64,000 nucleotides of DNA, taken from contig JAAYHS010000192.1 in the NCBI GenBank assembly GCA_012735315.1, positions 1-64,000 of the forward strand. Direction: 5' to 3'. Source of the DNA: Bacillota bacterium (lineage in GTDB: Bacteria > Bacillota > UBA4882 > UBA8346). The notes under the pieces are model-generated. The model did no database searches. It saw only the letters and a program-made list of their open reading frames with translations, and had not been told where the DNA came from. Positions 18,552 through 49,541 of this stretch are shown here, in pieces. A program made the position numbers and the translations under genes. The stretch's first letter is position 1. Each line of letters opens with the position of its first letter.

Positions 18552-19271
18552 ATGCTGAGAGGGATTTATATCTCAACCACGGGCATGGTAGCGGAGATGG
18601 ATCGCCAAAACGTTATCGCCAACAATCTCGCCAATGTGGATACGGTGGGGTTTAAACGTGATAATGTCGTCCAACAGCCTTTTGCCGAGATTTTATTGAA
18701 CGCTTATTCCAAACGAACCATTCGGAATATCGGACCTTTAGGGCTGGGAGTTCAAGCGGTTACCGAGTATCCCGATTTTACCGGCGGCAGCATAGTAACC
18801 ACCGATAACCCTTATGACTTGGCAATCGAAGGGGCGGGCTTTTTTGCGGTTGAGGCCGATAACGGGGTTAAATATACCCGGGCCGGTAATTTTATCGTGG
18901 ACCGCGATAATTATTTGGTTACCAAGAACGGATATCGGGTGTTGGGACAAAACGGCCCGATTCGGGTGGAGGGCAATTTTACGGTCGGTCAAGACGGCGC
19001 GATAATCCAAGATGGCGCGGTAGTCGACCATTTAATGATTTTCAGTGAAGTCGGGATGGTCAAAGCGGGCGAAACGTTTTACGTTAACGATAATCCTCAA
19101 TTGGCCACCGAATTTAGGGTGATTCAGGGCGCTCTGGAACGTTCCAATGTGAACGCCATTCGGGAAATGATTCAAATGATTAACGTTACCCGGACTTATG
19201 ACACCAACCACCGGGCATTAATGGCGCATGACGAGACTCTGGCCAAGGCCGTCAATGAATTGGTTAGGTAA
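18552..19271 (+). CDS. flgF: Flagellar basal-body rod protein FlgF
   Basis: Proximal rod component of 239 residues, exported by the flagellar type III system, so no signal peptide. It begins MLRGIYISTTGM with the ANNLANVDTVGFK heptad-type N-terminal motif, and the C-terminal SNVNAIREMIQMINVTRTYDTNHRAL forms the coiled coil that joins rod subunits. Shorter than FlgG and lacking its middle insert, hence FlgF. AAAGGAGG lies 7 bases before ATG 18552. First gene of a six-gene flagellar cluster; a structured RNA separates it from flgG. Confidence 0.92.
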   Translation: MLRGIYISTTGMVAEMDRQNVIANNLANVDTVGFKRDNVVQQPFAEILLNAYSKRTIRNIGPLGLGVQAVTEYPDFTGGSIVTTDNPYDLAIEGAGFFAVEADNGVKYTRAGNFIVDRDNYLVTKNGYRVLGQNGPIRVEGNFTVGQDGAIIQDGAVVDHLMIFSEVGMVKAGETFYVNDNPQLATEFRVIQGALERSNVNAIREMIQMINVTRTYDTNHRALMAHDETLAKAVNELVR

Positions 19272-19298
19272 TAAAAGCTCAAAATGAATAAAGCAAAA

Positions 19299-19438
19299 GG
19301 CAGTTGAGTGAGTGGAAGAAAACCGGACCGCTTGCGGAGGTTTTTAGGGAATCGACCGACTGAGATTCCCCCGATAGCGAATCAGTGAACTCAAACTGCC
19401 AGGTAGCTTCTTTTATCTGTGCGGTTTTTTCTTTTATT
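19299..19438 (+). ncRNA. Structured leader RNA between flgF and flgG (candidate riboswitch-like element)
   Basis: A closing stem GGCAGTTGAGT (19299-19309) with ACTCAAACTGCC (19389-19400) encloses two hairpins: AAAACC..CCG / CGG..GGTTTT (19319-19344, loop CTTG) and GGGAATC / GATTCCC (19347-19370, 10-base loop). The second loop's ACTGA (19359-19363) can pair with TCAGT (19382-19386), giving a pseudoknot. GCGGTTTTTTCTTTT (19421-19435) follows and can pair back with GAAGAAAACCG (19315-19325), so a terminator/antiterminator choice is possible. I compared it from memory with c-di-GMP-I/II, THF, SAM, TPP, cobalamin and ZTP classes and found no match. Confidence 0.6.
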
Positions 19439-19455
19439 GAAGGAGGTCGATTAGA

Positions 19456-20244
19456 ATGATGAGGGCGTTATGGACTGCGGGTTCAGGCATGTTGACCCAG
19501 CAAACTAATGTGGATACCATCGCCAATAACCTCTCCAATGTGAATACCATCGGTTTTAAAAAGATGAGGGCTGAATTTGAAGACCTACTCTATCAAACCA
19601 TCCGCGAGGCAGGCGCCGCTTCGGCTCAAGGCAGGGAACTTCCCACCGGCTTACAAGTCGGACATGGTTCCCGGACCGTGGCGACGACCAAAATTTTTAC
19701 TCAAGGCGATTTTCAGCAGACCGATAACCCCCTGGATTTAGTGATTGAGGGGGACGGCTTTTTTCAAATTATGATGCCGGACGGAACGATTCGCTACACC
19801 AGGAACGGTGCGTTTAAGCTTGATTCCGAAGGCAGGATGGTCACCTCGGAAGGGTTTTATTTGGAACCGGAGATTACGATTCCCGAGGGAGCGATCGAAA
19901 TCGTCGTCAGTCAGGATGGATTGGTCTCCGTTTTAATGCCCGGAGAGATTTTACCCCAAGAGATTGGCCAGATCGAACTGGCCCGCTTTATCAATCCCGC
20001 CGGTTTAATAAACGACGGCAAGGGTCTTTACAGACAAAGCGTCGCTTCCGGTGTCCCGTTGGTAGCTACTCCGGGAACGGAAGGTTCGGGAACCATCATT
20101 CAAAGATATTTGGAAATGTCCAATGTTAAAGTGGTTGAGGAAATGATTAACATGATCGTAGCCCAGCGGGCGTACGAGATCAACTCCAAAGCGGTGCAGG
20201 CCTCGGATGAGATGCTGCAAACGGCGAATAATTTACGACGCTAG
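19456..20244 (+). CDS. flgG: Flagellar distal rod protein FlgG
   Basis: Distal rod protein of 262 residues that joins the hook and is surrounded by the P and L rings. The N-terminus MRALWTAGSGMLTQQTN...ANNLSNVNTIGFKK and the C-terminal LEMSNVKVVEEMINMIVAQRAYEINSKA coil are nearly canonical; the YQTIREAG(AAS) insert near residue 50 is FlgG-specific and sets rod length and straightness. GAAGGAGG precedes ATG 19456 by 8 bases. Adjacent genes flgA, flgH and flgI encode ring parts of the same structure. Confidence 0.95.
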   Translation: MMRALWTAGSGMLTQQTNVDTIANNLSNVNTIGFKKMRAEFEDLLYQTIREAGAASAQGRELPTGLQVGHGSRTVATTKIFTQGDFQQTDNPLDLVIEGDGFFQIMMPDGTIRYTRNGAFKLDSEGRMVTSEGFYLEPEITIPEGAIEIVVSQDGLVSVLMPGEILPQEIGQIELARFINPAGLINDGKGLYRQSVASGVPLVATPGTEGSGTIIQRYLEMSNVKVVEEMINMIVAQRAYEINSKAVQASDEMLQTANNLRR

Positions 20245-20257
20245 AGGTAGGTAAGCG

Positions 20258-21208
20258 ATGCTTAGATTCTTCCGTTTAACCGCCTGTTTATTCATATTAA
20301 TCTTCGGTCTCGGGCAGATAGAGGCCGCCGCTATTCCGGTTTTGGAAATCCAGGACCGGGTCACGGTGCCCGGACCCAAAATTTATTTATCGGATTTGGG
20401 TACCGTTCGGAACGCCTCCGAGGCTGTGCTGATGAACTTAAAGGTAGACCTGGGGCCGGCGCCTTATCCCGGTCAAGTAAGAGTCTTATCCAAGAATTAT
20501 TTGGGATTAATTTTAAAGCAAAAAGGCTTCAGCCAAAAGGTAAATATCTTGATGGGACAACAGGTTGAGGTAAGAGTGGAGTCAACCTGTATTACCGGCG
20601 CTCAGTTGGCGGAAGCGATTCAGCAATTACTTCCTCAAAATGAACCGTCGCTCGTCAAAAGGTGGATTGAGTTTCGGAACTTGCCGAAGGAAACTTGGCT
20701 CAGTAAAGGGGACTGGCAAATCAAGGCCGAACCGTTGGGGGCGCTTCCCCTGGTCGGATCAGCCCTTTTCCGGGTAGTCCTTTCCAACGGCGCAACGGTT
20801 AAAACCATTAACGTTAGCGGCAAAATTCGAGCTCAAGGCCGGGTGTACCAAGCGGTCCTGGATCTCAAACGTCATTCGCTGCTGAATCCCGACGCTTGGA
20901 TGATTGTTGAGGCTGAGTTAACCAATGGTAAAGAATTTTTAGGGGAATTACCCCAGGCTATGCGGTTGACGAGAAGCATTCGCAAGGGACAGATTTTGGA
21001 AACCGGGCACCTACAGCCCCTGCCGTTAGTAAGCAAGGAAGACATCGTTAACGTAGTGGTTAAAGATGGGAACATCACGATCAAAATGACGGGAATCGCT
21101 CAAAATGACGGTTGGATGGGGGAACAGATCATGATCCTTAATCCCTCTAGCAAAAAATCCTTTCGCGGCCGGGTTGCCGGCCCGAATTTGGTGGAGGTGA
21201 CCTTATAA
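20258..21208 (+). CDS. flgA: Flagellar P-ring assembly chaperone FlgA
   Basis: Periplasmic chaperone for FlgI polymerisation. A signal peptide (residues about 1-22, ending near IEAAA) is present, and the C-terminal 130 residues form the SAF domain (RLTRSIRKGQILETGHLQPLPLV, about residue 235), typical of FlgA. The protein is 316 residues, longer than the enterobacterial 219, because of an N-terminal extension seen in other FlgA forms. ATG 20258 follows AGAGGTAGGTAAGCG. The gene ends one base into the flgH start codon (ATG overlap), so the two are coupled. Confidence 0.88.
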   Translation: MLRFFRLTACLFILIFGLGQIEAAAIPVLEIQDRVTVPGPKIYLSDLGTVRNASEAVLMNLKVDLGPAPYPGQVRVLSKNYLGLILKQKGFSQKVNILMGQQVEVRVESTCITGAQLAEAIQQLLPQNEPSLVKRWIEFRNLPKETWLSKGDWQIKAEPLGALPLVGSALFRVVLSNGATVKTINVSGKIRAQGRVYQAVLDLKRHSLLNPDAWMIVEAELTNGKEFLGELPQAMRLTRSIRKGQILETGHLQPLPLVSKEDIVNVVVKDGNITIKMTGIAQNDGWMGEQIMILNPSSKKSFRGRVAGPNLVEVTL

Positions 21209-21807
21209 TGAGACATTACATGCGGTCAATCATTATCGGTATGACTTTAACCATAATATTACTAATTCAGGGCAACGCCCTACTCGCCGATTCGCTCTGG
21301 ACCGATCAAAGCGTTTCCTTATATGGAAGCAAACCGCGCTTTTTTCAAGCCGGGGATATCCTTACCGTACTAATTGTCGAACAAGCCCAAGCGACCCAAA
21401 GAGCCGAGTCGTCCAGTGACGAGAGGAATTCGGTGAATGCCGGTCCGGGAACGGGTCTTTTATCAAAAATTTTCCCGGAAAACATCGGGGCCGATTGGGG
21501 CGCCAGTTCTCAGGGGAAAGGTTCGACCACCAGAGGCGGCAGTCTGCAAGCGAAGATCTCGGTGGAAGTTGTCGGGGTAAATCCCAATGGGGTTCTGGTG
21601 ATTGAGGGCCAACAGATAATTAAGGTCAATAACGAAGAACAAGTGTTAAAGATTAGCGGAATGGTCAGGGCCGAAGATGTCAGTAATGAAAATGTGGTGC
21701 TTTCATCGAATATCGCCAATGCGGTCATTGAATATCAAGGAAACGGAAATATAAACAATGCTCAGAAACCGGGAATTTTAACCAGATTCTTTCATTGGAT
21801 ATTTTAA
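21208..21807 (+). CDS. flgH: Flagellar L-ring protein FlgH (no lipobox cysteine)
   Basis: L-ring subunit expected in the outer membrane. SLWTDQSVSLYGSKPRFFQAGDILTVLI (split over residues about 30-58) and the STTRGGSLQAKISVEVV...NGVLVIEGQQIIKVNNEEQVLKISGMVR core are FlgH-specific. Residues 5-27 form a signal peptide, yet the protein contains no cysteine at all, so it cannot be the lipoprotein known from enterobacteria. 199 residues. The presence of FlgH argues for an outer membrane. GTGGAGGTGACC at the end of flgA supplies the ribosome binding site. Confidence 0.9.
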   Translation: MRHYMRSIIIGMTLTIILLIQGNALLADSLWTDQSVSLYGSKPRFFQAGDILTVLIVEQAQATQRAESSSDERNSVNAGPGTGLLSKIFPENIGADWGASSQGKGSTTRGGSLQAKISVEVVGVNPNGVLVIEGQQIIKVNNEEQVLKISGMVRAEDVSNENVVLSSNIANAVIEYQGNGNINNAQKPGILTRFFHWIF

Positions 21808-21920
21808 CCGGATTTAAGCAATTCACTTTCGATTTCGTTTGACGGATAGTCGGCTGAATTCTTTCAACGGGTAATCCTTTTTCTACCGGTTGTAAGTTAT
21901 TCAGGATTGGAGGTATTGAA

Positions 21921-23042
21921 ATGTCGACCAAAAGACCATTTATGTTGCTGGCGCTGGCGGCGCTGGTGTTCGGGATCGGAGTTCCGGCAGCGGCGGCGGT
22001 CAGCGTCCCGGCTGTTACCCGGGTTAAGGATATTGCCAGATTGCAAGGGGTTCGCGCTAATCAATTGAACGGCATGGGTTTGGTTGTCGGTTTAAATGGG
22101 ACCGGGGATTCTTCGAAAGCCAACGCGGAGATCGTCGCCAATGCCTTGGCCAAATGGGGAGTTCAGGTAAACGCTTCCGATTTAAAAGTAAAAAATATTG
22201 CCGTGGTGGCGGTCACCGCTAAATTCCCTCCTTATCTGCACCAGGGAGATACTATTGACGTTCAGGTTTCTTCGGTAGGGGACGCTAAAAGCTTGCAAGG
22301 CGGGGTCCTTTTACAAACTCCGTTGGTCGGGGCCGACGGCAAGGTTTACGCGGTGGCCCAGGGGCCGGTATATGTAGGCGGTTATTCGTTCACCGGCAGA
22401 AACGCCAGTCAGCAAAAGAATATCACCACAGTAGGAATTATTTCCAACGGGGCGATCGTCGAGCGGGAGGTTCCGATGCAACTCGATCATAACGGTAGAT
22501 TGCGTTGGGCTTTGAATACCCCTGATTTTACAACCGCGGTTCGATTGGCGGAAACCATCAACGACAACATCGCGATCGGAGCGGCCCGGGCCTTGGATAT
22601 GGGATTGGTTGAGGTTTTAATTCCCAGGGAACGGATGGCGGACCCGATATCCTATATTGCCGAAATCGAGAATTTGCCGGTTACACCCGACGGAATTGCC
22701 AAAGTAGTGGTTAATGAGCGGAACGGCACCATCGTGGTCGGCGATAAAGTTAGAATCGCGACGGTAGCGGTTACCCACCGCAACATCACGGTAAAAGTGG
22801 GTTCTGAAACTGCGGTATCCCAGCCGGCTCCGTTTTCGATGGGTCAAACCGTGGTTACTTCCGGAGATCGGCTTGATGTCCAGGAAGAGGAGGGGAATAT
22901 GATCTTAATGCCGGCCGGAACCGATATCGGCGGCATTGTCCGGGCATTAAACGCGGTGGGAACCACTCCTCAAGATATTATCGCGATTTTGGTGGCGATT
23001 AAAGAGGCCGGCGCCTTGTATGGAGTTTTGGAGTTTATTTAG
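21921..23042 (+). CDS. flgI: Flagellar P-ring protein FlgI
   Basis: P-ring subunit in the peptidoglycan layer, 373 residues with a cleavable signal peptide (about 1-27, ending PAAAA). Family-defining motifs: RVKDIARLQGVRANQLNGMGLVVGLNGTGD near residues 35-64 (only partly listed here), and VVNERNGTIVVG near 255. Length matches enterobacterial FlgI. GATTGGAGGTATTGAA precedes ATG 21921. It ends 13 bases before flgJ. The 110-base gap to flgH has no terminator, so the cluster is probably one transcript. Confidence 0.95.
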   Translation: MSTKRPFMLLALAALVFGIGVPAAAAVSVPAVTRVKDIARLQGVRANQLNGMGLVVGLNGTGDSSKANAEIVANALAKWGVQVNASDLKVKNIAVVAVTAKFPPYLHQGDTIDVQVSSVGDAKSLQGGVLLQTPLVGADGKVYAVAQGPVYVGGYSFTGRNASQQKNITTVGIISNGAIVEREVPMQLDHNGRLRWALNTPDFTTAVRLAETINDNIAIGAARALDMGLVEVLIPRERMADPISYIAEIENLPVTPDGIAKVVVNERNGTIVVGDKVRIATVAVTHRNITVKVGSETAVSQPAPFSMGQTVVTSGDRLDVQEEEGNMILMPAGTDIGGIVRALNAVGTTPQDIIAILVAIKEAGALYGVLEFI

Positions 23043-36566: not shown

Positions 36567-37415
36567 TTAGTTGATCCGGATGAGCTTGCGAAGCCGGGCA
36601 AAGAAATCGGACTCATATTCGTTTTCCTCATTACCGTCGTAATAGAGGTTAAGAACAAACCGGTAATCTTGGGGCGCCGACAAATCCTGCCGGCTGGGAT
36701 CGGTTGAAAGATTGCGAACCGGTTCGGGAAGTTTTTGGTTAATCAGGTTCACCAGCCGGAAAAAAGTTTTATTAATCGAATCGATCAAATTTTGAAGTTC
36801 GGAATCGTTCTCGATTAAATGGCGGATCGGTTCTTTTTCGGTATGGAAAGTTCCGGAAAATTGACGGCGATAGACAATTTTTTGAAAAACAGCCGCCGGG
36901 AACTTTTTAAGTTGAACCAAACGCCTTAGTTCTTCTTGTTCTTCTTCGAGAAATTTGGCTAATTTAGGTAATTGAGCGGCTGCATGTAGTTGAAAGAGCG
37001 ATTTTTGAAGCGCCTCCTTCAATTGGGAGGGTTCGTTAAAATTGTGGCGACGCGCTACCAGACCAAGACAAATTTTTTCAATTACTTGAACAACAGAGTG
37101 CCATTGTAAGGCAATGGCTTCAACTTGCTCGGTTTGCTCCGGATCCATTCGGTTTAACGCGCGGGTAAGACCGTCCAAGTCGCCGAGCAATGGATAGTTT
37201 TTATCGAGATTCGGGTAGTTTTCATATAGAACCCGGATTTTGCGCTGTAAACCGGTTGGCGGAATCTGATCTTTCGCGGTGATCAAGATATCGATATAAC
37301 CGGTTAAAGCCACCCTATTCCAGGATATTGAATGGATGGGGTTGGCCAATTGGGCTTGCAAATGCGCAAAATAAGGGAAGGAGAGCATTTCCAAATAATC
37401 GACGGTTTCACTCAT
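36567..37415 (-). CDS. Helical protein of unknown function, third gene of ParM-like/LSm-like operon
   Basis: 282 residues, almost wholly helical, no signal or membrane segment. Residues about 155-170 (LEEEQEELRRLVQLKK) look like a short coiled coil. The C-terminus is acidic then aromatic (DGNEENEYESDFFARLRKLIRIN). No family recognised. TAGGAGA precedes ATG 37415, 12 bases after the stop of the LSm-like gene. Its position as last gene of an actin-like/LSm-like operon suggests it could be an adaptor, analogous in place, not in sequence, to the DNA-binding partner of ParM. Confidence 0.75.
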   Translation of the reverse strand: MSETVDYLEMLSFPYFAHLQAQLANPIHSISWNRVALTGYIDILITAKDQIPPTGLQRKIRVLYENYPNLDKNYPLLGDLDGLTRALNRMDPEQTEQVEAIALQWHSVVQVIEKICLGLVARRHNFNEPSQLKEALQKSLFQLHAAAQLPKLAKFLEEEQEELRRLVQLKKFPAAVFQKIVYRRQFSGTFHTEKEPIRHLIENDSELQNLIDSINKTFFRLVNLINQKLPEPVRNLSTDPSRQDLSAPQDYRFVLNLYYDGNEENEYESDFFARLRKLIRIN

Positions 37416-37427
37416 ATCTTAGATCTC

Positions 37428-37850
37428 CTACCAATTCCTAACCAAATTATCCAATCGTTCTTTAAAATCGTTTCCTTTGGCGCCGGAGTTTTCAGCGCCG
37501 GTCGCCGGAGTTTTTACTTCGGTTAATACGGGTTTAAGTTTAGGAGGGACGGTATTTCCCGAAGCCATGGTTTTATCGGCGTTGGAGGAAGACGAATATT
37601 CAGTCGTAACCGCGGCTGAATCAACGGCCGAGATTTGATCCATTTCCGCCTGTAAGCGCAGGATTTTATTGATCCGGACCATCTGCAAATACTTGCCGTC
37701 TTTGATCAACAAGAAATCGGAATCCCAGCCCAACAAGGTCCCTGAAAGCTTGGCGCCGTCCTCTAGATATAAGATAAAGTCGCTTTTTTTGCGCAATAAA
37801 TAATTTAAAACCAGACTACTGTTGAAAATACCGGCATTGAATTCATTCAT
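37428..37850 (-). CDS. LSm/Hfq-like small protein with disordered tail
   Basis: 140 residues. About residues 20-65 match the Sm fold: LYLEDGAKLSGTLLGWDSDF fits Sm1 (Hfq has FLxNGxxLxGxIKGFDxF) and QMVRINKILRL fits Sm2. The rest is Ser/Thr/Pro/Ala-rich and looks disordered, ending in a short amphipathic helix (FKERLDNLVRNW). Such proteins form rings that bind RNA or proteins. ATG 37850 overlaps the end of the ParM-like gene, so translation is coupled; the ribosome binding site is weak (GGTAGCG). It is not the usual hfq, which is about 80 residues and lies next to miaA. Confidence 0.7.
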   Translation of the reverse strand: MNEFNAGIFNSSLVLNYLLRKKSDFILYLEDGAKLSGTLLGWDSDFLLIKDGKYLQMVRINKILRLQAEMDQISAVDSAAVTTEYSSSSNADKTMASGNTVPPKLKPVLTEVKTPATGAENSGAKGNDFKERLDNLVRNW

Positions 37851-38898
37851 CGCTACCAACCGCCGCTTCTAAACTGGAGGATGTCCGGTTGCGATTTCCA
37901 AAGAGCCGTTGCGCCAGCTTTCGGAATCCGTAAACATTGGCAAACTGGGCTTCTTTAGCTAATAATGAGTTTTCGAAATGCGGCATTAAATATTCGGCTA
38001 GAGCAATTCCGCCGCCGCCGGTGATAAAGACCATATCCAGTTCCCACTTATTAATCCACAGGCTGTTGATTTCGGTAACCAATTTTTCAGCGACGACACC
38101 GAAGGCGTGTTTCTTAATTTCCTCGAGATTATAGGTTTTGCCGGATATTCGGATTGACCCGCTCCGAACGATTTGGTCCAATTGATAAATGGGCTTGGAA
38201 ATTTTAAACTCTTCCTTTAAAAGTTCCGAAATCAGCACATAAGCGGTGCTTAAGGCGGTAGTGCTCGAACCGCTTAACCGGTCGATGTTTTCCAGGTTGT
38301 CGACTACGATGTAATCGGTGGTTCGGAAACCGACGTCAATAATACCTACCTTGGACGCGGCCAAATTTTCATCGACAATATTTCCGGTATAATCAAGAAT
38401 CAAGTCAAACAAGGAACCGAACGGTTCAGGCAAGACTTTGACCTCATTGACCATCAGCGTATAGTCTTGAACGGGACTCTGGTCTCTTTTGAAGGTGATG
38501 GTTTGACGGCCCTTATATAATTGGGTTAGGGCTTGTTTGGTTTCGGTAAAAAACCCTACCGGAAGACCGGTTACAATATTATAATTAGTGGCGCGGCCTT
38601 CGGCCAATAAAGCCAACACCGTCGAGAGCAAAACCTTGCTAATCCTTTCATCCATGCGGTTTTCATTTAAAGAAAACAATACAACATCCGATTGACGATT
38701 GGCGAGATCGCCCACGAAATATTCCCGGTCATCCACTACCACATGTAAGTTGTTAATCAGGTTAATTTCGGGGCTTTCATCGGTTATGTAGCGTAAAGTC
38801 CGGGCTTGCCCTACGACGGAAGGAAATATTTTGTCTTTCTTCCCGTCGGACGCCTTGACAAAACCGTAACCCAGATCGACTCCGATATTTTTTTCCAT
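37843..38898 (-). CDS. ParM/StbA-like actin-family ATPase
   Basis: 351 residues. The actin-fold motifs are present: phosphate-1 GVDLGYGFVKASDG (about 5-18), phosphate-2 GIIDVGFRTTDYIVVDN (about 183-199), and adenosine FITGGGGIALAEYL (about 290). The closest relatives known to me are plasmid ParM and crenactin-unrelated bacterial Alp proteins, which polymerise to move DNA. ATG 38898 has AAGGAGA 8 bases upstream; a longer frame to 38931 has no site. It heads an operon with an LSm-like and a helical protein. No plasmid replication gene is nearby, so this is a chromosomal copy or a domesticated one. Confidence 0.85.
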   Translation of the reverse strand: MEKNIGVDLGYGFVKASDGKKDKIFPSVVGQARTLRYITDESPEINLINNLHVVVDDREYFVGDLANRQSDVVLFSLNENRMDERISKVLLSTVLALLAEGRATNYNIVTGLPVGFFTETKQALTQLYKGRQTITFKRDQSPVQDYTLMVNEVKVLPEPFGSLFDLILDYTGNIVDENLAASKVGIIDVGFRTTDYIVVDNLENIDRLSGSSTTALSTAYVLISELLKEEFKISKPIYQLDQIVRSGSIRISGKTYNLEEIKKHAFGVVAEKLVTEINSLWINKWELDMVFITGGGGIALAEYLMPHFENSLLAKEAQFANVYGFRKLAQRLFGNRNRTSSSLEAAVGSDE

Positions 38899-38931
38899 AA
38901 CCCAAATCTCCTTCCATTTCATTATCATCAT

Positions 38932-39370
38932 GCTAAGCAGCGGTTTGTTCCAAAAGCGCTAATTAAGTAACGGAACAAATGATGTAACAATACATACTTC
39001 GTCAAAAATCATTGATAACTTTAGAGGAGTGTTAGATTTCACAAGGGAAAAACCGACTTTTTAAATATAAAGAGGTCGTTTTAACGGTGACATTATTATT
39101 ATATCAAAAGAATCGCCGATTGGAATTGAATTTCGCCCGTTAAGAAAGATTCAAATCCCGGATGGAAAAAGGTGGTTGATCGGTTGGTGTTTTATTTATT
39201 GTATTGCCGCTCTTCAAATAGCTATGGCGAGCTTTTTTAAACAGGAATAATGAAATTTGGATTAATACCCGCCGGAACGACTCAACCATTAATTCCGGGT
39301 AACCGATAAAATAGTTAAGGGAAAACTTAGCGGATCTCGATTGATGTCAATGATATTTCAGTTAAGGATA
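38932..39370. other. Gene-free divergent region
   Basis: About 440 AT-rich bases between the ParM-like operon (minus) and ftsEX (plus). No gene and no clear tandem repeats of the parC type are seen. CGTCAA at 39000-39005 gives a TTGACG -35 for the minus strand but its -10 is poor. Confidence 0.4.
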
Positions 39371-39373
39371 CAT

Positions 39374-39403
39374 TTGACGTTGAATAACGGCAGGAACTAA
39401 AAT
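39374..39403 (+). promoter_or_regulatory. Predicted promoter of ftsEX
   Basis: TTGACG (39374-39379), 18 bases, TAAAAT (39398-39403), about 50 bases before the ftsE start. Confidence 0.5.
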
Positions 39404-39454
39404 GGCGGTGTCGAAATAACGTAGCAATCATTTTTTCCCATGAGGTGACGACAA

Positions 39455-45605: not shown

Positions 45606-46640
45606 ATGCATATGGCTGATGCTTTGGTTTCTCCGGCGGTCGGCGGGGCGATGTGGGCGGCCGCTGCCGGACTGACGGCTTATTCCGCCAAGAAAGTCCG
45701 GCTTGATCCGGACGAAAAAAAAGTGCCGCTGATGGGGGTGTTGGGCGCTTTTATTTTTGCGGCTCAAATGATTAACTTCACGATCCCCGGCACCGGTTCC
45801 AGCGGCCACTTGGGAGGCGGACTGCTCCTGGCCGCTTTGTTGGGGCCCTATGCCGGTTTTCTGACCATGGCTTCCATCTTGGCGGTCCAAGGGTTTTTCT
45901 TCGGGGATGGCGGTTTGCTGGCGATGGGATGCAACATTTTCAATCTCGGTTTCTATCCCTGTTTTATCGCTTACCCGCTCTTGTTTAAACCGATCGTCGG
46001 GAAAAGGCCGACACCGGGCCGGATATTGGCGGGCGCGTCTTTGGCGGCGATTGTCGGATTGCAACTGGGCTCTTTCAGCGTAGTCCTGGAGACTTTGGTT
46101 TCCGGCATCTCCGAATTGCCGTTCCGGGCTTTTCTCTGGTTAATGCAACCGGTTCACCTGGCAATCGGCATCGTCGAAGGCTTGATCACCGCTGCGGTGC
46201 TCACTTTTGTCTGGAAGGCCCGTCCGGAGCTTTTGGAAAGTACCGTCGCCGGAGCGGCTTACGGCGATCTTGACCTTAAAAAGGTATTGATCAGCCTTTC
46301 GATAGCGGCGGCGCTCACCGGCGGAGCCCTCTCCTGGTTCGCTTCAACCCACCCGGACGGTTTGGAATGGGCGCTGTTTCATGCCTCCGGAAAAGAGGAA
46401 CTGGAGGCCCCGGCCGGGATTCATCAAACTATGGCCGGAATTCAAGAAAAAACCGCTATCTTGCCGGATTACGGCTTTAAAACTCCGGCGGAAAATGCTG
46501 CGGCTGAAAGCGAACCGGTGGAAAGATGGCCTGCCGTCAGCGGCGGGACGAGCTTTGCCGGATTGGTCGGCGGCTTGTTCACCCTGCTGTTGACCGGGGT
46601 AATCGGGTACGGGTTAAGGATGGTTAAAAAGAGGGGTTGA
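45606..46640 (+). CDS. cbiM: Cobalt/nickel ECF transporter S component, CbiM fused to CbiN-like domain
   Basis: 344 residues. The N-terminus MHMADALVSP is the metal-coordinating start of CbiM/NikM (the mature N-terminus and His2 bind the ion), followed by six or seven TM helices to about residue 215. From about 225 a CbiN/PDGLE-type domain follows (helix, HPDGLEWAL, periplasmic loop, last helix), so both are one polypeptide. The nearby nikR suggests nickel. AAAGGAGATCATATC precedes ATG 45606. cbiQ and cbiO follow after a repeat array of about 730 bases. Confidence 0.92.
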   Translation: MHMADALVSPAVGGAMWAAAAGLTAYSAKKVRLDPDEKKVPLMGVLGAFIFAAQMINFTIPGTGSSGHLGGGLLLAALLGPYAGFLTMASILAVQGFFFGDGGLLAMGCNIFNLGFYPCFIAYPLLFKPIVGKRPTPGRILAGASLAAIVGLQLGSFSVVLETLVSGISELPFRAFLWLMQPVHLAIGIVEGLITAAVLTFVWKARPELLESTVAGAAYGDLDLKKVLISLSIAAALTGGALSWFASTHPDGLEWALFHASGKEELEAPAGIHQTMAGIQEKTAILPDYGFKTPAENAAAESEPVERWPAVSGGTSFAGLVGGLFTLLLTGVIGYGLRMVKKRG

Positions 46641-47345
46641 AATTTCGTTCCGGGTTCCGCGTTCCGGGTTTTGCGTTTGGTGTTTTAGTTCCCAGTTCAC
46701 AGTTCCCAGTTACCAGTTTTGGGGGTTTCGTGTTCGGGCTTCGTTCCGGGTTCCGCGTTTCGTGTTTCGGGTTTAGCGTTTCGGATTTCGCGATCTGTGT
46801 TTTAGATCCCTGGTTTTGAGTTTGACGTTCCGATTTTGGTTCCACGTTCCGGGTTCCGAGTTTCGGGTTTGGTTTATGGCCTATGGTTCCAAGCTATCGT
46901 TCCGGGTTCCAAGTTTCGGGTTCCGGGTTTGATCTATAGCCTAGGGTTCCATGTCTATCGTTCCGGGTTCCGAGTTTCGGGTTCCGGGTTTGATCTATAG
47001 CCTAGGGTTCCATGTCTATCGTTCCGAGTTCTGAGTTTCGGGTTCCGGGTTTGATCTATAGCCTAGGGTTCCATGTCTATCGTTCCGGGTTCCGCGTTCC
47101 GGGTTCCGGGTTTGATCTATAGCCTAGGGTTCCATGTCTATCGTTCCGGGTTCCGAGTTTCGGGTTCCGGGCTTGATCTATAACCTAGGGTTCCATGTCT
47201 ATCGTTCCGAGTTACGAATTACACATTTAGGGTTTATATGAGGAGAAGAAAGCGGAAGCAGTCCATGAACAAGTTGATCCCGGGCCGCTTCATCGACAAA
47301 GCAGTAAAAAAACTCGGAACGTTGAACGCGGAACGCGGAACGGAT
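46641..47345 (+). repeat. Low-complexity GTTCCGGG array with 61-bp tandem repeats
   Basis: From 46650 the sequence is made of GTTCCGGGTTCCG, GTTTCGGG and GTTCCCAG words. From 46931 to about 47215 a 61-base unit that begins GATCTATAGCCTAGGGTTCC is repeated five times (starts 46931, 46992, 47053, 47114, 47175). At 47310-47345 the reverse-complement words AACGCGGAACGCGGAACGG appear. Only short, unsupported frames cross it. It splits cbiM from cbiQO. Confidence 0.85.
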
Positions 47346-47367
47346 TGTTTGAAGGCGGGAGTTAGTA

Positions 47368-48180
47368 ATGGCGGATTTGGCGGCTGCTTGGTATAATCTT
47401 AAATTCTTCGATGAACTGGCCGGAAGGAATAGCGTGATTCACCGGATCCATCCGGTGAGCAAATTGTTGACCACCTTGGCCTATGTAGTCTGTGTGGTAT
47501 CTTTCGGAAAGTATGAAGTCCTTCCGTTGTTGCCTTTGATTTTATATCCGGTGGTATTGATCATATTGGCGGATTTGCCTCCGGGGGAGCTTTTCAAAAG
47601 GTTGTTGCCGGCCGCCCCCTTTGCGCTGGCGGTCGGAATTTTTAATCCGGTTTTTGACCGGACGCCGCTGTTGGATTGTGGAGGGTTCATCCTTACCGGA
47701 GGCTGGCTCTCCTTTGCCTCGATCATGTTCCGCTTCATTCTGACGGTGCTGGCGGCGTTGATTCTAATTGCCACCAGCGGCATCAATGAAGTGGGGCTGG
47801 CACTGTTGCAGTTGAAGCTGCCGCGAGTCTTCGTTACCCAGTTGCTCTTGCTCTATCGCTATCTGAACATTCTCATCGAAGAGACCGCCCGTACGGTGCG
47901 GGCTTATACGTTGCGTTCTCCACGGGAGAAAGGCGTCCGGTTTCAGGCTTGGGGTTCCTTGGCAGGACAATTGTTGCTGCGGACTATGGACCGGGCGGGA
48001 CGGATCTACCAAGCCATGCGTTGCCGGGGATTTAACGGAGAAATCCGGCTTTACCATAACCGGCCCTTACGGTTGGCGGATTGTCTCTATTTCGGGTGCT
48101 GGTCGTTGTTTTTCGGAATAGTCCGGTATTTCGATCTTCCCGGTTGGTTGGGCCGGGTGTTAATGGGGGTAGGCCGGTGA
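47368..48180 (+). CDS. cbiQ: Cobalt/nickel ECF transporter T component CbiQ
   Basis: 270 residues, about five TM helices. The two Ala-Arg-Gly-type coupling motifs of T components are visible: RTVRAYTLRS (about 175) and RIYQAMRCRGFNG (about 215), which dock the ATPase. HRIHPVSKLLTTL near the N-terminus is typical for CbiQ. GGGAG lies 6 bases before ATG 47368. It overlaps cbiO by four bases (GTGA). Confidence 0.93.
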   Translation: MADLAAAWYNLKFFDELAGRNSVIHRIHPVSKLLTTLAYVVCVVSFGKYEVLPLLPLILYPVVLIILADLPPGELFKRLLPAAPFALAVGIFNPVFDRTPLLDCGGFILTGGWLSFASIMFRFILTVLAALILIATSGINEVGLALLQLKLPRVFVTQLLLLYRYLNILIEETARTVRAYTLRSPREKGVRFQAWGSLAGQLLLRTMDRAGRIYQAMRCRGFNGEIRLYHNRPLRLADCLYFGCWSLFFGIVRYFDLPGWLGRVLMGVGR

Positions 48181-48932
48181 GCCATCATTTAGTGGAAGTC
48201 AAAGATTTGGAATATGTTTATCCCGACGGGCACCGGGCCTTGGAAGGAGTTTCTTTCCGGATCACCCACGGAGAAGCGGTGGGGATCGTCGGAGCCAACG
48301 GGGCGGGAAAGTCAACTCTGTTGCTGCATCTGATCGGAGCGCTTTTCCCCAAGGTCGGAAGCGTCCGGGTGGGGGACCTGCCGGTGGTCAAGGAGACATT
48401 GCCCCAGATCCGGCGGAGCGTGGGAATGGTTTTTCAAGATCCGGACGATCAGCTTTTTATGCCGACTGTCGGCGAAGATGTAGCCTTCGGCCCGTTGAAT
48501 CAGGGATTGCCCAGGCTGGAGGTTGAGCAACGGGTGGTCCAAGCACTGGAAACCGTCGGAGCGCTTCATTTGAAAGACCGGCCGCCCTACCGGCTTTCCG
48601 GAGGGGAAAAAAGAACGATAGCGATCGCTACGGTACTGGCGATGGCCCCGGATATTCTGGTGATGGACGAGCCCAGCGCCGCTCTGGATCCGGCTTCCCG
48701 CCGCAAGCTGGTCACCTTGCTGGCCGGGTTCAAACACACCAAGATCATCGCCAGCCACGACTTGGATCTGATCCTGGACCTTTGCGAACGGACCATTGTC
48801 TTAAGTAAGGGCCGGATTTTGGCCGACGGTCCGACCCTTGAAATCTTCAGCGATGAGGATCTGTTAAAGTGGAGCAATTTGGAGAAACCCTTCCGGATGC
48901 AGGGTTGTCCGGTTTGCGGGCAAAAACTATAG
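48177..48932 (+). CDS. cbiO: Cobalt/nickel ECF transporter ATPase CbiO
   Basis: 251 residues. GANGAGKST Walker [23 protein letters not shown] (the QDPDDQ loop is typical of ECF A components), [12 protein letters not shown] signature, and [13 protein letters not shown] Walker B. Start GTG 48177 overlaps the cbiQ stop. Its last six bases overlap the 3' end of nikR on the other strand. GCPVCGQKL at the C-terminus has two Cys, a small oddity that might bind metal. Confidence 0.93.
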
Positions 48933-49346
48933 ATTCTCCCCGGTTGTGGAAGTCACCAATTTGCAATGTTTGACTCCTTTGGCTCCACCCAACCGGTCGG
49001 CGATCGTTTGAATGGCCGCCTTCTCGCCTTTGACCACCAAAACTTCCAGGCAGTTGTGGGCGTCCAGATGCACGTGGAGCACGGAGATGATGTTCCGGTG
49101 GTACTGGTGTTGGAGATCCGTGAGTTTGCTCTCAATCTCCCGGTGATGATGGTTGTAGACCAGGGTAATGGTGCCGACGGCCGCGCCTTTCTCATTGCGC
49201 CAATCTTCCGCCACCAGATAATCCCGGATCAAGTCCCGGATCGCCTCGGAGCGGTTGGTGTAGCCTTTGGCTTCGATTAAACGGTCGAACTGCTCCAATA
49301 GGTTGAAGTCAATGGAAACGCCGAAACGTTGTAAGTTTGATTCCAT
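48927..49346 (-). CDS. nikR: Nickel-responsive regulator NikR
   Basis: 139 residues. N-terminal ribbon-helix-helix ([20 protein letters not shown]) and C-terminal ACT-like metal domain. Nickel ligands match E. coli NikR: His in YNHHHREI, the [17 protein letters not shown] block gives two His and the Cys. ATG 49346 has AGGAGG 5 bases upstream. Convergent with cbiO. It most likely represses the cbiMQO genes when nickel is high, though no operator is identified. Confidence 0.95.
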
Positions 49347-49541
49347 GGGAACCTCCTGAATGTCCACATATAGAATTTTATTCGCCCATCATGCGGTTAC
49401 TCCTTTCTTAGCCACGGTTAATTTGATGAACCTAAAAATAACTACGCAAAATAGGAAACCATGAAATTTTTTGTAAAAACAATATACATAATTAATTGTC
49501 GATAGTAGCATTGTATCGTCACAAAATGATGTGTGAGTCAA

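Follow-up and report, generated by a model that had tools for sequence, protein, structure and literature searches.

An Hfq-fold protein in the usual place of ParR beside a chromosomal ParM-type actin in Bacillota

Which protein serves a ParM-type actin on a chromosome when the gene next to it does not encode a ParR? The question is raised by an operon of three genes, for a ParM-type actin (ParM-A), an LSm protein and a third protein, which we analysed in a stretch of 64,000 nucleotides (the window) of a chromosome-like contig from a Bacillota genome (G000:C137, assembly of 2.95 Mb), with leuCDB, ftsEX, uvrAB and flagellar genes nearby. The initial annotation had described three tightly packed genes, and the reading frames were confirmed, all on the minus strand and in the order ParM-A, LSm, third gene (Table 1). 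Lying immediately 3' of parM and overlapping it by 8 nt (ATGAATGA), the LSm gene takes the usual place of parR, and a gap of 12 nt separates it from the third gene. The genes ftsE, ftsX, an envC-like gene and ctpA run divergently from the operon, and on the other side, past the third gene, lie genes for a KDPG-aldolase-like protein, a zinc-ribbon protein and a methyltransferase, and then leuCDB (all names by eye). No integrase adjoins the operon, and its site is a fixed chromosomal one between ftsE and leuCDB. Elsewhere in the window, genes for the flagellar rod, L-ring and P-ring (FlgH, FlgI; 18552-23042, by eye) suggest that this lineage of Bacillota has an outer membrane, and genes for a CbiM/CbiQ/CbiO-like metal transporter, ending with a NikR-like regulator, were seen at 45606-49367 (by eye).

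Table 1. Features of the three-gene operon and of the region upstream of it (positions in the window).
Feature	Position	Strand	Basis
ParM-A, ParM-type actin-like ATPase, 351 aa	37843..38898	-	domains, nucleotide motifs, orthologues
LSm protein of Hfq fold, 140 aa, proposed as the ParM adaptor in place of ParR	37428..37850	-	profiles, AlphaFold2, Foldseek
Third protein, 282 aa, predicted helical, known only from this operon	36567..37415	-	ORF, orthologues, AlphaFold2
LSm protein, residues 8-70: Sm body with a helix and five strands	37641..37829	-	AlphaFold2, Foldseek
LSm protein, residues 71-126: variable linker, predicted disordered	37473..37640	-	pLDDT <50; dN
LSm protein, residues 127-140: conserved C-terminal helix, ending FKERLDNLVRNW	37431..37472	-	likeness to ParR tails
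C-terminal end of the third protein (FFARLRKLIRIN), basic and amphipathic, a candidate helix for membrane targeting	36570..36605	-	D score; three orthologues
Intergenic region up to the divergent ftsE, without direct repeats or parC-like iterons	38899..39454		

The presence of a ParM-like actin was borne out by the domains of ParM-A (Pfam ALP_N PF17989, E=5e-34; MreB-like_C PF21522, E=2.5e-16) and by its nucleotide motifs (phosphate-1 IGVDLGYGFVK, phosphate-2 GIIDVGFRTTD, adenosine ITGGGG). The nearest match in the PDB was the pCBH ParM (E=5e-29), and next came another ParM, Dh-cParM1, and CorM. ParM-A stayed under the equivalog cut-offs of the models for ParM, PRTRC_D and FcmB. A tree of 57 ParMs placed the LSm-linked members with the ParR-linked ParMs of loci L081, L091, L138 and L092 (84/91, with long-branch warnings), and when long rows were removed they were sister to L081, L091 and L138 (97/92), so that ParM-A appears to derive from a ParMR lineage. 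Some of these sister systems are found on mobile elements: a copy of L081 lies on a contig from a viral collection (L149), and L092 adjoins an integrase-like gene. Four orphan ParM-like actins (L014-L017) were considered as orthologues of ParM-A and rejected, as they group with the clade of bactofilin-linked ParMs.

Repeated, parC-like sites of the type TTGTWATACAA were found 5' of parM at three of the four sister loci (L081, L138, L091), and iterons of this type were missing at L092. Upstream of the three LSm operons only one such site, with two mismatches, was found in total and none in the region of the window. Direct repeats were absent from the regions upstream of the operon in G000 and G001, and three imperfect repeat copies upstream in G003 were considered as a parC and judged to be chance.

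The initial annotation had proposed an Sm fold for the 140-residue protein, and on this point structure prediction and the Foldseek comparison with Hfq agreed. The Pfam Hfq family (PF17209) was matched by all four LSm orthologues (best E=1.7e-4), and the window protein by itself (P0002) gave E=0.0041, short of the Pfam cut-off. When the family profile was compared with the PDB, mainly Hfq chains were recovered, over positions 15-63. The AlphaFold2 model, built from three sequences only, has a helix at residues 8-21 and strands at 24-29, 34-42, 46-51, 54-59 and 63-68 (pLDDT about 79-89), followed by a disordered stretch at 72-127 and a helix at 127-138. Its best 50 Foldseek matches were all Hfq (best 1.0 A over 60 columns), and E. 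coli Hfq superposes with an rmsd of about 1 A. As modelled, the middle protein of the operon has an Sm/Hfq fold, and the ribbon-helix-helix DNA-binding domain of ParR is not found in it.

After a linker that varies in length and sequence, the LSm proteins end in R-L-D-x-L-V-[RK]-N-[WL] (in summary form RLDxLVRNW), with R-L-D-x-L-V-[RK]-N kept in all four orthologues, and dN was higher in the linker (0.61) than in the Sm body (0.21) or the tail (0.25). Similar tails are found in the ParRs encoded beside the ParMs closest to ParM-A (KVDLLVDQF in L081, KINNIIENL in L091, KLDNLISNF in L092, KIDNLMDGF in L138, KIDSLIKIF in L148), the likeness being illustrated by SKLDNLISNF and NKIDNLMDGF. These ParRs are small ribbon-helix-helix-like proteins encoded immediately 3' of parM, an assignment made by sequence pattern and gene position, and the three that were scanned had no Pfam match above threshold. 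With a position-specific profile made from these five ParR tails alone, the four LSm tails scored 12.2, 8.0, 11.8 and 8.0 bits, whereas among 447 unrelated C-termini the highest score was 5.5. The test was post hoc, prompted by the noticed resemblance, and used five training tails and four LSm tails that are not independent. With a nine-tail profile, to which four more distant ParR tails had been added, the LSm tails ranked 1, 2, 1 and 2.

The LSm protein and ParR have a common layout of a compact N-terminal domain, a variable linker and a C-terminal helix. ParR binds ParM through its last 17 residues, in a manner that confines ParR to the barbed end of the filament (PMC9178275), and by its tail the LSm protein seems to keep this ParM-binding half of ParR. 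The match also argues for ParM as an old partner of the LSm protein. The contrast with ParR that the initial annotation had drawn is accordingly smaller than supposed. The amphipathic end that had been noted in the LSm protein reads better as a ParM-binding tail of the ParR type than as a membrane anchor. Short relatives of the ribbon-helix-helix part of ParR without the tail were observed at three other loci (L145, L146, L147), the first two of which adjoin integrase-like genes.

For the third protein the helical character that had been noted is predicted, but the AlphaFold2 model is poor (pLDDT 42). Weak matches to HAUS6, Dad2 and RecN were taken as helical noise, and a search of about 400 Bacillota genomes gave no further copy of the protein. 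Its C-termini are basic and amphipathic in the three orthologues (FFARLRKLIRIN, GLFAKLRSLLRI and NFFPLLRNFLK), and the window copy has the highest Heliquest-type D score among 454 C-termini. From these features the third protein may be a membrane anchor, a possibility to which we give somewhat less than even odds; it is by this route, rather than by the end of the LSm protein, that a membrane link is possible.

The full operon was found in three genomes of two genera (G000 and G001 of the same genus, G003 of the other), always beside ftsE, so that the three genes are indeed conserved together and in order, within a narrow range. The identities of ParM-A, the LSm protein and the third protein were 87, 58 and 66% in one comparison and 74, 43 and 42% in the other, and dN was low (0.077 for ParM-A) against a near-saturated dS. 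A fourth genome (G007) has a solitary LSm gene with an intact tail at the same site by ftsE (L007:8974-9381, minus strand), without ParM-A and the third gene, and carries a different ParM (L015); the LSm protein must accordingly be of use even where no ParM-A is linked to it. The same flanks without the operon were found in G002, G005 and G008. When 84,980 species genomes were scanned with a sequence pattern, only two LSm relatives turned up, both already known, no LSm matches were found on viral contigs or plasmids, and other Bacillota matches to the LSm profile were ordinary Hfq carrying YKHA. The operon is rare, with three genomes and a solitary LSm gene in a fourth.

Based on the computed operon, its conservation, the Sm fold, the tail similarity, the placement in the tree and the lack of iterons, we consider it likely, with a probability of about two in three, that the operon is a ParMRC system transferred to the chromosome, in which the DNA-binding half of ParR was swapped for an Hfq-fold module and the putative ParM-binding tail was kept. 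ParM-A would polymerise with ATP, and the LSm protein would act in place of ParR, with its flexible C-terminal helix docking on ParM where ParR tails bind and its Hfq-fold body standing in for the N-terminal ribbon-helix-helix domain. If the body forms a ring, as assumed from Hfq, it would present about six tails and could cap or nucleate the ends of ParM-A filaments without DNA, thereby playing the part of the ParR-parC complex, which holds several tails together. From the loss of the DNA-binding domain and of the parC iterons we infer that DNA is no longer the cargo of the filament. The module may be tied to the cell envelope by the third protein, and the role of the whole may be cytoskeletal, like that of FcmBC.

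The RNA-linked cytomotive system that the initial annotation had suggested, in which the LSm protein is an RNA-binding paralogue of Hfq and RNA is positioned or transported by the ParM filament, is in accordance with the clear Hfq fold and with the basic residues partly retained at rim-like positions (R20 and K22 in the window copy). However, the proximal RNA-binding motif of Hfq is lacking: none of the four LSm orthologues has the Sm2 signature YKHA or retains the QD and FDxF positions, all of which are kept in the true Hfq that the same genomes encode as a separate gene elsewhere. This loss argues against Hfq-like RNA binding, and as the tail is accounted for by ParM binding, we regard the RNA-linked system as unlikely. 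A body of the Hfq type might bind DNA instead, as E. coli Hfq can (PDB entry 5uk7 is Hfq bound to dsDNA), in which case the operon would still be a partition system that pulls the chromosome or an integrated element, in line with the descent of ParM-A from ParR-linked ParMs. Against such partition speak the upstream regions without iterons, the fixed site between ftsE and leuCDB with no adjoining integrase, and the absence of LSm matches on plasmids and viral contigs, which together make it improbable.

It is also conceivable that the LSm protein and the third protein act in division or envelope biology through ftsEX-envC-ctpA and that ParM-A is a late addition. The LSm gene lies beside ftsE in each of the four genomes that have it, including the one without ParM-A, and related bactofilin-linked ParMs adjoin putative M23 peptidases. 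The adjacency to ftsE is however explained by descent, since the ftsE-leuCDB flank is present also in genomes without the operon, and the match of the LSm tail to ParR argues for ParM as the old partner; we give this possibility a low probability. The exchange of the DNA-binding half of ParR for an Hfq-fold module is our preferred reading.

Compared with ParMRC (that of R1, and cParMR of Desulfitobacterium and others, PMC12270681), the operon likewise encodes a ParM-type ATPase and, downstream of it, a small adaptor with a variable linker and a conserved C-terminal helix resembling the tails of sister ParRs. It differs in the adaptor body, which is of the Hfq fold and not ribbon-helix-helix, in the lack of parC iterons and in the added third gene. 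The operon is in this sense a ParMR variant with an unexpected adaptor body. Hfq and LSm RNA chaperones share with the LSm protein the helix and five-stranded barrel, but it lacks their Sm2 motif, has a long linker and a ParR-like tail and is encoded beside an actin. In filamentous cyanobacteria FcmB and FcmC are a plasmid-type actin that moved to the chromosome and its downstream partner, shown to act in cell shape (PMC12645912), a precedent for the change of role proposed here. The gene arrangement is alike, whereas FcmC was without a conserved domain in the search of its authors (PMC12645912) and the partner here has the Hfq fold; ParM-A itself scored 47.6 bits with the FcmB model, for which the cut-off is 300. 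The initial annotation knew of no described system that joins an actin to an LSm-like protein, and in the open-access literature searched no description of such a system was found.

Other partners were observed beside ParM-like genes. At L085-L090 and L093-L099 (also L019 and L024) the ParM-like gene is followed by a bactofilin gene, the identity of which was confirmed with Pfam for L086, L093 and L097, and where the locus is long enough a putative M23 peptidase comes next. These ParMs are one clade (13 rows, 100/100) across 10 Bacillota families, and no paper on the pair was found in the open-access literature searched. As at the LSm locus, a non-ParR scaffold is in the place of parR and ends in its own conserved C-terminal motif, but the clade, the scaffold and the tail (mostly close to F-[YH]-x-S-[YF]) are different. 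Sister to this clade are the orphan ParMs L014-L017, of the same family or class, which have no ParR and carry a variable C-terminal extension of their own, with an RFAxxxFFEDxK-like ending in three of the four; at L014 a ComFB gene lies downstream. At L107-L112, L114 and L115 the ParM-like gene is directly followed by a gene for a protein of 56-81 aa with a KxYLTxRExKYIIRxCE-like pattern, not ribbon-helix-helix by eye, which may be another small partner family.

Partner exchange might be a general route from plasmid-type actins to cellular cytoskeletons, along which the tail is kept or re-evolved and the DNA-binding domain gives way to a self-assembling scaffold (an Hfq-like ring or a bactofilin), with a multi-tail ring capping the filaments and held at the membrane via the third protein; we put this forward as a tentative and rather doubtful generalisation. 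If the exchange at the LSm locus is true, a DNA-segregating actin would have gained a new job by changing only the cargo-binding half of its adaptor, and the Hfq fold would have the role of a structural scaffold instead of an RNA chaperone. ParR-like tails on unexpected proteins would then provide a simple sequence test for the partners of the many chromosomal ParM-like actins without ParR; which partners these have is a question posed by papers of 2025 on FcmB and on genome-encoded ParMs.
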